DNA of 64,000 nt from Saprospiraceae bacterium. Lineage in GTDB: Bacteria > Bacteroidota > Bacteroidia > Chitinophagales > Saprospiraceae. Positions within the stretch are counted from its first letter, which is position 1. Every line of letters starts with the position of its first letter. The DNA lies in assembly GCA_029212405.1 (NCBI GenBank), contig JARGNR010000001.1, positions 86,151 to 150,150 on the forward strand, in the 5' to 3' direction. The notes beneath the pieces were generated by a model. That model worked only from the letters and a program-made list of their open reading frames with translations, did not search any database and was not told the origin of the DNA. Position numbers and translations under genes: made by a program. Positions 29,220 through 53,783 of this stretch are shown here, piece after piece.

Positions 29220-30995
29220 ATGAAAACGCAACTTCTTATTCTCTTAGCCTTCCTTTTTACATCTGTTTCCTCTGCACAGAATAGAATCAAAGTGGTTACT
29301 TCTGCCTCTATATTTAAAGATATGACAGAGAATATCGGAGGAGACAAAGTAGATGTCTATTCTATTGTTCCAATTGGAGGCGATCCTCATTTATATGAAC
29401 CAAAACCATCGGATGCACAACTTATAAAATCAGCTGAATTAATATTGGTCAATGGCCTAACGTTTGAAGGATGGATTGCCAAACTAATTGATAATTCCAA
29501 CACCAAAGCACCAACAGTAACAATTACGGAGGGAGTCGATGTGATTAAAAGTGACACCTATGAAAATGCAGCTGATCCACATGCATGGATGGATGCCAAC
29601 AATGGATTGGTATATATTAAAAACATAAAAAATGCACTCATCAAAGCAGACCCTGCAAATAGTGCGATCTACCTTAAAAACTACCAAACATATTTAGAAA
29701 AAATAAAAGCATTAGATGCGTACATACTAAAATCCATTCAGAAAATTCCACGAGAAAAGCGAATTCTGGTTACTTCTCACGATGCATTTGCTTATTTCGG
29801 TAAACGATATGGATTAGAATTAAATGCACTGAAAGGGATCAGCACAGAAGCCGAAATTCAAACCTCTGACATGGTCCGAGTCAAAAATAGAATCAAAGAT
29901 TCTGGTGTTCCAGCCATTTTTGTAGAAAGTACTATAGACCCTAAAGTCATCCAACAAATTGCATTAGATAATGGCGTAAAGGTAGGAGGAGAACTTTATG
30001 CAGATTCTCTTGGTGAAGAAGATTCTGAAGGAGCCACTTATATTACTATGTTAACATATAATACGGATGTAATTGTAAATGCGTTAAGTAGAGAGGTTTT
30101 TGCTAAAAATAAAGGAAGCAATACCGCTGAAGACACCAACTTCTTTGTTTATTTTTTATTAGCTCTTATTATGCTCGGTGGCTTAGGTTTATTGATCTCA
30201 AGATTTAATGGACCTCGAGTAACCACGGATAAATTAAACTCAATTGCTATTGGCGAAACGATAATAAGTGTAAAAGGTGTTTCTGTCAGTTATGAACGAA
30301 AAAGAGTACTAACCAATATTTTCTTAAAAATAAGCAAAGGTGGATTATACGGGGTGGTAGGTCCAAATGGTGCTGGTAAATCAACACTATTCAAATCTAT
30401 TTTAGGTTTGATTGAAACTAATTCAGGAGAAATTGAAATTATGAATCATCCTATTGAGGAGGTCCGTCAAAAAGTGGCATATGTACCTCAAAAAGATGAT
30501 GTTGATTGGTCTTTCCCAGCTACGGTATTTGATGTGGTATTACAAGGTAGATACCCCTACAAAGGGCTTATTCAAGGGACTAATCAAAATGATAGAGAAA
30601 AGGCGATGAATGCTCTTGAAGAACTTGGAATTTCCGAATTAGCAAATCGACAAATAGGCCAACTTTCTGGAGGACAGCAACAGCGAGTATTTATTGCCAG
30701 AGCTCTTTGTCAAGAAGCTGAAATCATCTTTTTAGACGAACCGTTTGTAGGAGTTGATAATTTAACTGAAGAAAAAATTATTCAGATATTAAAAAGACTT
30801 GCTTCGGAAGGAAAAACATTATTGGTGGTCCACCATGATCTTTCAACCGTTGAGCAATATTTTGACAAAGTCATTCTACTCAACCAACGGCTAATAGCGT
30901 ATGGAGATACAGATACAACTTTTACATCAGAAAACATGTCAAAATGTTATGGACCTCAATTATCAATTTTACATAAAACTGGGATGTTTGAGTAA
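29220..30995 (+). CDS. fused periplasmic metal-binding protein, TM helix and ABC ATPase (Mn/Fe-type importer)
   Basis: A 591-aa single chain. Residues 1-19 are a signal peptide ending SSAQ. Residues about 21-300 are a cluster-9 (TroA/PsaA-like) binding protein with likely ligands His57, His121, a Glu in STEAEIQ (about 210) and Asp262; the H-H-E-D set and absence of a His-rich loop favour Mn or Fe over Zn. A TM helix follows at 308-329. Residues about 345-591 are a complete ATPase: Walker A GPNGAGKST at 381-389, LSGGQQQR at 482, and Walker B IIFLDEP (Asp506, Glu507). The topology places the binding protein outside and the ATPase inside. No permease gene follows. It lies 5 nt after the MntR-like gene and shares its operon. 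Confidence 0.9.
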   Translation: MKTQLLILLAFLFTSVSSAQNRIKVVTSASIFKDMTENIGGDKVDVYSIVPIGGDPHLYEPKPSDAQLIKSAELILVNGLTFEGWIAKLIDNSNTKAPTVTITEGVDVIKSDTYENAADPHAWMDANNGLVYIKNIKNALIKADPANSAIYLKNYQTYLEKIKALDAYILKSIQKIPREKRILVTSHDAFAYFGKRYGLELNALKGISTEAEIQTSDMVRVKNRIKDSGVPAIFVESTIDPKVIQQIALDNGVKVGGELYADSLGEEDSEGATYITMLTYNTDVIVNALSREVFAKNKGSNTAEDTNFFVYFLLALIMLGGLGLLISRFNGPRVTTDKLNSIAIGETIISVKGVSVSYERKRVLTNIFLKISKGGLYGVVGPNGAGKSTLFKSILGLIETNSGEIEIMNHPIEEVRQKVAYVPQKDDVDWSFPATVFDVVLQGRYPYKGLIQGTNQNDREKAMNALEELGISELANRQIGQLSGGQQQRVFIARALCQEAEIIFLDEPFVGVDNLTEEKIIQILKRLASEGKTLLVVHHDLSTVEQYFDKVILLNQRLIAYGDTDTTFTSENMSKCYGPQLSILHKTGMFE

Positions 30996-50888: not shown

Positions 50889-50961
50889 GGTGCCTTAGCT
50901 CAGTTGGTAGAGCAATGGACTGAAAATCCATGTGTCCCCAGTTCAAATCTGGGAGGCACCA
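50889..50961 (+). tRNA. tRNA-Phe (GAA)
   Basis: A 73-nt cloverleaf: acceptor GGTGCCT pairs with AGGCACC, D arm GCTC/GAGC, anticodon stem ATGGA/TCCAT around loop CTGAAAA (anticodon GAA), T arm CCCAG/CTGGG around TTCAAAT. The 3' CCA is not encoded (A is followed by CAA). A promoter and a terminator flank it, so it is a single-gene unit. Confidence 0.98.
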
Positions 50962-51719: not shown

Positions 51720-53561
51720 TTAGATTAAATCAATCCAACTTTCGACCAGTTTTCCAGATTGTTCCAATTCTGCTTTCTTGGCCTTGATCTTTTTACTAAA
51801 TTTCCAACATGTGGCCAATCGTAAGTCTACAATTTCAGATAGGTCTTTTGAGACAAGACTTTCACCATGTTTATTCACCAAAAAAAGTATATAAAATCCT
51901 TTTAATATCGGAAAATGAATCCTGTGAAATATCGTATTGGAAGTGACAGACTCGTTTGTTCCACATTTTGTGCATCTTCTAGCTTTCTCTCCTTTTCCAT
52001 TTCCGTACTTTGAATTATCACATTTGATACAATTAAAGCCATCTCGCCATTTCAACTCTTCCAACAACGTATAACAAACTTCATCAGAATCAAAATATTT
52101 TTTGAAATCATAGAAGGGGATCGTATTTTGCATGATCCTCAATTCATTTATTTTCTCAACATCACTCTTCAATTCCTGGTTCTCCTGATTCAATTGTAAA
52201 TTCAAGTTCACAATCTCATCCGTTTGCTCTTTCAACTTATCATTTGCAGCAAGCAATTCAGCATTTTGAAGATGGATGATTGAATTTTTTCGCTCCAGCT
52301 CTTCCGTTTGCTGGGCTACTTTCTCTGCAATTTCTTCATTGACACGATCTTTAATACTATTTAATTGCTCCAACTGAGCAATGGACCTTTTACGTTCCGA
52401 TTTTCTGGATTCGTTCAAGTAAAATATTTTCCTGAATTGTGAATAGGTCAATGAAAGCGTAAGAGCAACTACGCCAATATGAGGGGCAAATTGAATAATA
52501 TGATTTGCATAAGAAGCTGTCAAAAATGGAAGCAAGGTATAGGTAAGGTTGGATAATATTACAAATGCGAATCCTATTATAAACGCAAATACCGACTTAT
52601 TTCCATTTCGATATGTATCTACACAACAATAAATCATCATAAGGAAAGGAAATAAGTAGAAAAAATTATGAATAAATAACTCTGGAACAAAAACAACAAA
52701 GCCATACCCCAAAAAACTCACAAATACACTAACAGAAATAATCCTAAAATAGCGATTATTGGTATCCCAAGCCTCGATTACCGACAAAACCAATGCCCCT
52801 GTGGCTAAAATCAAAGCGACAGGTAACAAGAGCAGTAAATAAAAATTCACTCGAGGACTCTCCCCCCAAAAGTATTGAAACCCACCACCATCTATATATA
52901 AAAACACCAAAAGTGAGGTAAAGGCAAAAACACTATAGGTCAAATAAATACTTTCAGAAAAACGAAGCCTCATCACCAAACTAAAAAACAAGGCCAAGAT
53001 AATCACCCCATATGCTGCACCAAACAGACCTGCCTCCACATATGAAGCTTTCAAAAATTGATACTCCGTCTTTACTTCAAATGAAAAAAAAGAAGAATGA
53101 GTTGATCTTATTTTAACAACTATTTCCACTATACCTTCCTGAGGGAGCCTAAAGGTTGGTTTTCTGTAACTCACTTCTCTGTTGTTAAAAGCGTGATTGG
53201 TACCAACTGGAGTCTTTGTTTTTAGGACCCCATCCATCCATAATTCCAAGTGATCAATTCTATTATCAGTACAGGTTAGATATAAGTTTTTAGGACTATT
53301 AGATAAATCAAGAGAAAACTTCAGCCAATAGGTGAATCTCCTTGCTCTTGTTCCTTGCAAATAATAATCTGGCTTATGGAACAATTCCCGTCTAATGATA
53401 AAATCATCATATTTCAACTGTGATGAAGAATCAAGAAATTGCTCCATTTCAGAAACATGTATCTTCCTGTAATCGCTTACAACGGCAATCGGATCAGAAG
53501 CAAATAAATGCACTGAATACAAAATAAACACTAGTATTTGCGCTCCCAATTTCAGAGACAT
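51720..53561 (-). CDS. 7TM-DISM membrane sensor fused to an IS1595-type transposase zinc ribbon
   Basis: A 613-aa protein from ATG 53561. Signal segment about 1-22 (LGAQILVFILYSVHLFAS), then an extracellular 7TMR-DISMED2-type beta domain (about 30-165), seven TM helices (about 180-390), a cytoplasmic coiled coil (about 395-480), and a C-terminal module like the N-terminal zinc ribbon of IS1595/ISXO2 transposases. The zinc Cys are Cys511, Cys514, Cys530 and Cys533, with FNCIKC, RRCTKCGTNESVTSNTIFHR and the helix LSEIVDLRLATCWKFSKKIK after it. No transposase catalytic domain follows. It probably binds DNA from the membrane (inference). The frame is open to 53645, but the signal favours the later ATG. 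Confidence 0.85.
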   Translation of the reverse strand: MSLKLGAQILVFILYSVHLFASDPIAVVSDYRKIHVSEMEQFLDSSSQLKYDDFIIRRELFHKPDYYLQGTRARRFTYWLKFSLDLSNSPKNLYLTCTDNRIDHLELWMDGVLKTKTPVGTNHAFNNREVSYRKPTFRLPQEGIVEIVVKIRSTHSSFFSFEVKTEYQFLKASYVEAGLFGAAYGVIILALFFSLVMRLRFSESIYLTYSVFAFTSLLVFLYIDGGGFQYFWGESPRVNFYLLLLLPVALILATGALVLSVIEAWDTNNRYFRIISVSVFVSFLGYGFVVFVPELFIHNFFYLFPFLMMIYCCVDTYRNGNKSVFAFIIGFAFVILSNLTYTLLPFLTASYANHIIQFAPHIGVVALTLSLTYSQFRKIFYLNESRKSERKRSIAQLEQLNSIKDRVNEEIAEKVAQQTEELERKNSIIHLQNAELLAANDKLKEQTDEIVNLNLQLNQENQELKSDVEKINELRIMQNTIPFYDFKKYFDSDEVCYTLLEELKWRDGFNCIKCDNSKYGNGKGEKARRCTKCGTNESVTSNTIFHRIHFPILKGFYILFLVNKHGESLVSKDLSEIVDLRLATCWKFSKKIKAKKAELEQSGKLVESWIDLI

Positions 53562-53783
53562 AATTAACCGTGACTTGTCTACTAAACGGTTACAATATAC
53601 TTTGATCTGTGCACAATACCCGTCTGAAGATCCATAAAAGTACATTTATTTACTCCTAGTACACATTCAAAACACTTTAAATATGCTATATTTCAGTGTT
53701 TTACAAGCAGATTTTGTAAACGACTTGAATTTATCAATTATAAAATTTAACTTAGAGTTTAATTTTTAATAAAAACACTACCC

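Follow-up and report, generated by a model that had tools for sequence, protein, structure and literature searches.

Receptors of the 7TMR-DISM type normally have a kinase, cyclase, GGDEF or LytTR domain as their output. A gene on the minus strand of a 64-kb stretch of Saprospiraceae DNA (64,000 nucleotides, hereafter the window) raises the question of what such a receptor does with the zinc ribbon of a transposase at its C-terminus. The first-pass annotation had read the gene as a DISM receptor followed by a coiled coil and by the zinc ribbon and helices of IS1595-type transposases without their catalytic domain, and had suggested a membrane-bound, one-component DNA-binding sensor. The analysis of the protein, its relatives and their genomic surroundings is given here, with the proteins of this architecture referred to as the DISM-ZnR family.

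Domain structure and the transposase-type output

The fusion gene is an intact ORF, the features of which are collected in Table 1. It has a second in-frame ATG at 53645, which would give a protein of 641 aa; the start at 53561 is preferred, as a signal-peptide-like helix then sits at the N-terminus.

Table 1. Features of the fusion gene and its protein in the window (residues counted from the ATG at 53561)
Feature	Coordinates	Strand	Basis or remark
7TMR-DISM / IS1595 zinc-ribbon fusion gene	51720..53561	-	intact ORF; 613 aa from ATG 53561
Signal-peptide-like N-terminus, residues 1-20	53502..53561	-	model helix 2-19; read by eye
7TMR-DISMED2 periplasmic sensor, residues 38-162	53076..53450	-	Pfam PF07696, E 8.5e-11; RetS-like model
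7TMR-DISM seven-helix membrane domain, residues 178-372	52446..53030	-	Pfam PF07695, E 6.6e-17; long model helices
Long cytoplasmic helix / coiled coil, residues ~373-461	52179..52445	-	model helix 359-461; alignment
Low-confidence stretch, residues 453-479	52125..52205	-	pLDDT <50
IS1595-type zinc ribbon, residues 492-535 (C511, C514, C530, C533)	51957..52088	-	Pfam PF12760, E 5.6e-7; invariant cysteines
Three-helix HTH-like unit, residues 552-601	51759..51908	-	models; VIA-align Z scores
C-terminal tail (G/S)-W-x-x-(L/I), residues 608-613 = SWIDLI	51723..51740	-	alignments

All three domains of the fusion score over their curated Pfam cut-offs, namely the seven-helix domain (62.6 bits against 29), DISMED2 (42.4 against 22) and Zn_ribbon_IS1595 (29.9 against 25.4). 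The catalytic domain DDE_Tnp_IS1595 gave no Pfam match in the window protein, even at E 1, and no histidine kinase, receiver or AraC-type HTH was found by Pfam scans of it or of its relatives. The model of the DISMED2 domain matches the periplasmic domain of RetS (3jyb, Foldseek E 2.6e-5). AlphaFold gave a mean pLDDT of 86.6 for the whole protein and of 92.1 for the C-terminal 137 residues modelled alone, where the ribbon is followed by helices at 552-568, 571-578 and 582-601 in the HTH-like arrangement; the range of about residues 490-613 first assigned to the C-terminal domain was correct.

Among 11 aligned relatives the coiled coil differs in length by 7 or 14 residues. The four cysteines of the ribbon are invariant in both the 11-sequence and the 75-sequence alignments, and the tail motif is common in the family, with a nearly invariant W that some relatives, L052 and L063 among them, lack. 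Alignment A4 omits 8 of the 82 ORFs, which were presumed to be close relatives. Pfam scans of 75 members detected 7TMR-DISM_7TM in 74, DISMED2 in 74 and Zn_ribbon_IS1595 in 72. DDE_Tnp_IS1595 (PF12762) was detected in none of the 75, as against all three full-length comparison transposases (one match being below cut-off), and histidine kinase, receiver and AraC domains were likewise found in none at E 0.01.

The kinship with transposases is apparent when a profile of 24 C-terminal domains is aligned with one built from 17 IS1595-type transposases (probability 100, E 4.4e-43, 124 columns). The homology takes in the zinc ribbon together with the helices behind it and ends ahead of the catalytic DDE domain. 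When the HTH-like helices of the model were superposed with VIA-align, the best scores were to the ALX4 homeodomain (Z 5.6), engrailed (5.0), TrpR (4.6) and an Lrp-type regulator (4.4), middling values which, for a predicted structure, show a shared helix arrangement rather than kinship with these HTH proteins.

Distribution and descent of the family

With the C-terminal domain as query, matches at E 1e-5 were obtained in 46 of the 198 genomes of the window's order. These are mostly transposase-length or shorter frames, with receptor-length frames besides the window's own in G101 and G177. Two further frames were considered and set aside; in the 869-aa frame of G152 the N-terminus of a transposase runs on into a protein unrelated to it, and the 389-aa frame of G078 looks like a transposase.

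A search of genomes from 84,980 species, with an alignment of full-length proteins as query, gave at least 545 stretches that match the query in one part or another, and the fusion is present in all of the best 80 of these loci, a count that is partly due to selection, these being the top matches to a full-length query. Less biased frequencies come from the surveys of the order (198 genomes), the phylum (392) and one family (121). A receptor-length match was found in 12 of the 392 genomes drawn evenly over Bacteroidota, the window's included and with 10 candidates scored per genome, and in 35 of the 121 genomes of the one family; in both surveys the fusion was told by frame length, without domain scans. 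Genera with the fusion include Pedobacter, Hymenobacter, Mucilaginibacter, Chitinophaga, Cyclobacterium, Fulvivirga and Roseivirga, and some genomes have several copies. The architecture recurs well beyond this genome, as a large Bacteroidota family spread over many genera. A phage origin of the fusion was also considered, and phage records gave no match.

In a tree of 73 rows, a single clade (99/92) takes in the output domains of 43 DISM fusions, one Reg_prop fusion and two stand-alone proteins; the transposases of G057, from the window's family, and G012, from its order, stand nearest to it (90/87, not starred). Since the output domains form a single clade beside the transposases, one old capture from an IS1595-type transposase is suggested. 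The captured transposase domain of the first-pass annotation is upheld by this clade, by the homology over 124 columns and by the absence of the DDE domain from all 75 members scanned.

The receptor half of that reading applies to 74 of the 75 members, the exception being a Desertivirga arenae protein of 1078 aa (L049:1684-4920, plus strand), which has seven Reg_prop stretches and Y_Y_Y in place of the DISM sensor, joined to the same coiled coil and zinc-ribbon output. It is sister to a DISM protein encoded five kilobases away (99/95), from which it appears that the output domain was probably swapped locally onto a Reg_prop/Y_Y_Y sensor.

The two stand-alone zinc-ribbon/HTH proteins within the clade are of 137 and 138 aa (L134:1194-1607, minus strand, and L010:1498-1914, plus strand), and from their position there, joining and separation of the domains did not happen as one event in all lines. 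That of L134 bears the fusion-type W tail at its end, a hint that the regulator may also exist in soluble form.

The window's genome has no further PF12760 match at E 0.001. It has a second 7TMR-DISM_7TM match (G000:C187:37561-38046, L287), which lies in a frame of 295 aa. The related genome G057 has 19 IS1595-type matches, nearly all of them in transposase-length frames. Eight of these copies (L244-L251) were read, and with unlike flanks and no convincing terminal repeats or ends they may be old or domesticated.

Glycan loci and paired sites upstream of susC

Of 81 DISM fusions (L041-L120; 79 of them have any downstream gene), 50 are followed directly by a susC-cluster gene in the same orientation. 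Such a gene lies within the next five genes in 61 and upstream in 2, while 20 relatives have no such gene within five genes downstream, some of these being at contig ends. When the neighbours of 125 fusions were clustered, the two largest clusters were susC-like and susD-like. At 20 hand-chosen loci Pfam identified SusD_RagB in 18 of 78 downstream proteins as against 2 of 77 upstream ones, and the same downstream proteins include GH30 (7), a putative glucoamylase (6) and GH3 (5). Annotated plasmid copies in Persicobacter, Flammeovirga and Aureibacter lie among glycoside hydrolases, TonB receptor, SusD or sugar-transport genes. Eight Pedobacter-type loci (L060, L064, L070, L078, L090, L097, L114 and L120) also have a histidine kinase/response regulator gene pair no more than three genes upstream of the DISM-ZnR gene.

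In one clade the gaps between fusion gene and susC possess a candidate operator. Fifty copies of GGT(A/G)-N6-CGTAT(C/T) were identified in 26 of 61 gaps, and in 24 of these gaps, all at Sphingobacteriia-type loci, two direct copies of GGTA-N6-CGTATC stand 90-92 bp apart. A promoter match of the form TTG-N18..23-TAnnTTT follows the paired sites in 20 of the 24 gaps, four being without one. In 17 of these 20, site 2 stands 75-76 bp before the -33 element, the distances of the others being 72 (L111), 64 (L071) and 23 bp (L047). The 24 two-site loci are related, their fusion proteins being 58-97% identical in pairs and falling into 10 clusters at 80% identity, and the fixed spacings are for this reason partly shared ancestry; some of the 61 gaps are also the same genome counted twice. 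Scored with a matrix trained on the same gaps, 53 sites in 547 kb reach 14 bits; 52 of them are in the gaps, one is elsewhere and the 500 bp ahead of the fusion genes have none.

The site pair occurs 26 times in 24 of 34 fusion-bearing genomes, with 2 occurrences of the reversed control. Many of these 26 are gaps already used, and the genomes of both pair searches overlap those gaps, so that the new information is that the pair hardly occurs elsewhere. Among the 121 genomes of one family, some of which belong to the 34 as well, the pair was found in 18 of the 35 with a receptor-length match as against 5 of the 86 without (Fisher p 5e-8), and at 15 of its 24 places the C-terminal domain of a fusion is no more than about 450 bp away; the reversed control gave 7 matches. 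At two loci where the fusion is some 8.5 and 14.1 kb away, the pair stands just before a SusC-type TonB-receptor gene, the product of which shares TonB plug and CarbopepD_reg_2 domains with SusC. The pair also lies upstream of GH30 genes in two Mucilaginibacter genomes (L221, L222), away from the fusions found there, and these genes are possible distant members of the regulon. Such places before distant receptor and GH30 genes indicate that it is promoters, rather than the regulator gene, that the sites accompany. The pair of L218, which is inside an ORF, is probably due to chance, and the same may hold for the site of G698 and the five pairs in genomes without a fusion.

A single operator for all clades was considered and rejected, as matrix scores in the gaps of other clades are not clearly over those of shuffled sequences, save at further Sphingobacteriia loci. 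Repeats of another kind were picked out by eye in the gaps of Fulvivirga and Roseivirga (TTAAGCGCAA-like) and of another group (a AATCAATGTTTTTT block); these repeats of the other clades are less certain. An RNA element was also sought in the gap of a single locus (L060), where one Rfam match fell below the gathering score (E 0.27).

In the window itself the fusion gene is divergent and stands as an orphan next to housekeeping genes. It lies between genes for CutC and an acyl-CoA dehydrogenase, with a SurA-like isomerase and adenylosuccinate synthetase nearby, and neither susC nor susD is among the five genes on either side. The protein is 27-31% identical to those of the best 80 of the at least 545 loci. 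We take the copy, from its sequence and setting, for a working but unlinked regulator or else a stranded one. The latter reading, in which it is a stranded or decaying paralogue that lost its operon and is perhaps non-functional or acting on an unrelated target, while the family itself regulates glycan loci, is possible, if on the unlikely side. It is favoured by the neighbouring genes, by an end branch of 1.2 in the tree against a median of 0.45 and by the lack of any GGT(A/G)-N6-CGTAT(C/T) site in the 64-kb window. Against it, the frame of 613 codons has been kept open, the four cysteines, the HTH region and the tail motif are all conserved, and regulators of the SusR type without linked susC/susD are also described (PMC3878776).

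Two other features of the window are worth recording. A tRNA gene (50889-50961, plus strand) and the end of the fusion gene are separated by about 760 bp, in which the CutC gene lies. Further away, a 591-aa ORF (29220-30995, plus strand) has a ZnuA metal-binding protein at residues 25-288 (E 2e-84) and an ABC transporter ATPase at 364-509 (E 4.5e-32), an unusual joining of periplasmic and cytoplasmic transporter parts in a single chain.

Proposed regulation and comparison with known systems

We consider it quite likely that the DISM-ZnR proteins are membrane-bound, one-component regulators, acting as activators of glycan-utilisation loci and binding paired repeats by means of their transposase-derived domain. 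The DNA-binding sensor initially suggested for the window protein gains support from its predicted domains, the absent DDE domain, the HTH-like model, the susC/susD position of its relatives and their paired sites. The DISMED2 domain would bind a carbohydrate or similar ligand, probably an oligosaccharide freed by the hydrolases of the locus itself, and this would shift the seven-helix bundle. In a dimer, the coiled coil would pass the signal on to a pair of zinc-ribbon/HTH domains held at the membrane, which would occupy both direct repeats and so activate the promoter 75 bp downstream, the target in many relatives being the susC/susD operon directly downstream. Activation is suggested by the position of the sites upstream of the -33 element, and the proteins are probably activators rather than repressors. 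DNA binding, the binding of these paired sites by the DISM-ZnR protein, the ligand and dimerisation are what we infer for the family, and the orphan of the window may work in the same way as its susC-linked relatives.

The paired sites could instead be bound by another regulator, be it a two-component system, an unlinked HTCS or SusR-like protein or a global factor, with the DISM-ZnR protein a mere neighbour whose ribbon does something else. Histidine kinase and response regulator genes do lie within three genes upstream at 8 of the 24 two-site loci, 17 of the 35 fusion genomes of the one family are without the pair as written, and other glycan loci are described as being served by ECF-sigma factors or HTCS (PMC10449523, PMC10766802). 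The two-component pair is, however, absent from the other 16 two-site loci, and the site pair tracks the fusion both in its occurrence across the 121 genomes and in its closeness to the C-terminal domain, which makes another regulator an improbable explanation.

Zinc ribbons have varied roles, and the output domain might accordingly bind protein or RNA rather than DNA; a Foldseek search with the C-terminal domain gave weak matches, with nothing under E 0.001 and ribosomal proteins in the top rows, although a lack of strong matches is no proof of anything. This reading appears very unlikely, given that the homology with transposase N-termini extends over ribbon and HTH region alike, that the helices align with those of homeodomains, TrpR and Lrp-type HTHs, and that paired DNA sites are linked to the fusion genes; nor did the search for a match to a known non-DNA-binding zinc ribbon find one. 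That the protein still serves transposition, for instance as a membrane-tethered partner of IS1595 elements, is scarcely credible even with fusion and elements together in some genomes (Persicobacter JZB09, Sporocytophaga), as the linkage is to susC/susD, PF12760 has no second match at E 0.001 in the window's genome and 21 of 22 genomes show receptor-length frames only at E 1e-25 (a threshold that weaker transposases would escape).

The ends of IS1595 elements were compared with the operator. The right end of a Persicobacter element (GGTACCTAAGTGCA) scores 7.5 bits against the operator matrix (operator GGTATTTAAGCGTA), with p 5e-5 per window of the scan; some 650 distinct windows were viewed over three elements, both ends and both strands, so that the corrected p, itself post hoc, is about 0.03. 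Nearly as high a score (5.2 bits, p 8e-5) was obtained in a Sporocytophaga copy (L258) by a window that is oppositely oriented and lies beyond the terminal repeat. The left Persicobacter end (-15.8) and the other Sporocytophaga ends gave no match to the matrix. For the descent of the operators from transposon ends these sequence scores are suggestive only. A fuller scenario, which we offer tentatively and which may well prove wrong, is that Bacteroidota acquired the end-binding module of a transposase on one occasion and put it to use as the output of an entire class of glycan-locus regulators, that it was later swapped to Reg_prop/Y_Y_Y in Desertivirga, and that the operators still resemble transposon ends.

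In their proposed way of working the nearest known system is SusR. Like the SusR-like proteins (SusR BT3705, SusR2 BT3091 and SusR3 BT3309), the DISM-ZnR proteins have a place in the membrane, a periplasmic sensor and a cytoplasmic C-terminal DNA-binding domain (putative in the latter), and are often encoded by susC/susD; they differ in their sensor and in the transposase-derived origin of the DNA-binding domain. Among the proteins annotated as DUF6377, presumably the SusR family, seven were compared with the DISM-ZnR domain and scarcely match it (hhalign probability 14, E 0.002, 25 columns), the alignment taking in 7 of the 8 loci over cut-off. Read by eye, the DUF6377 proteins have TPR-like repeats and a single membrane helix, lack the zinc cysteine pairs of the DISM-ZnR proteins, and are encoded by genes that also lie beside susC-like and glycoside hydrolase genes. 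As described in PMC3878776, SusR has predicted direct-repeat sites with long spacing and a DNA-binding domain which its describers did not match to known ones; the 90-92 bp between the DISM-ZnR-linked sites differs from the SusR spacing. The 1,6-beta-glucan locus of B. thetaiotaomicron, according to PMC5481569, has the regulator BT3309 with SusCD, GH30_3 and GH3, and GH30 and GH3 similarly follow several of the DISM-ZnR genes at the 20 loci mentioned above.

With IS1595 transposases the family shares the zinc ribbon and the HTH-like helices, and differs from them in having a receptor in front and no DDE domain. With the other 7TMR-DISM receptors (RetS, LadS, SagS and others) it shares DISMED2 and the seven-helix domain, the difference being its transposase-type zinc-ribbon/HTH output. 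A GGDEF output behind 7TMR-DISM is described in PMC5342196, and in proteobacteria the DNA-binding domain of the ChiS family, a tri-helical cryptic HTH, is reported behind 7TMR-DISM (PMC8092284). The ChiS-type receptors likewise have a C-terminal DNA-binding output, although the domain is another than the DISM-ZnR zinc ribbon. HTCS also unite glycan sensor and regulator in one polypeptide (PMC3243724); the Desertivirga protein has an HTCS-type sensor, with the zinc-ribbon output in place of the HTCS kinase, receiver and AraC domains. In the open-licence literature no description was found of a DISM or Reg_prop receptor with a transposase zinc ribbon.

If the proposed function is true, the DISM-ZnR family would be a widespread regulator with a predicted operator, and would provide a named candidate switch for the loci of Pedobacter, Hymenobacter, Mucilaginibacter, Fulvivirga and their relatives. 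It would also be a bacterial case of the DNA-binding module of a transposase turned into the output of a membrane receptor.
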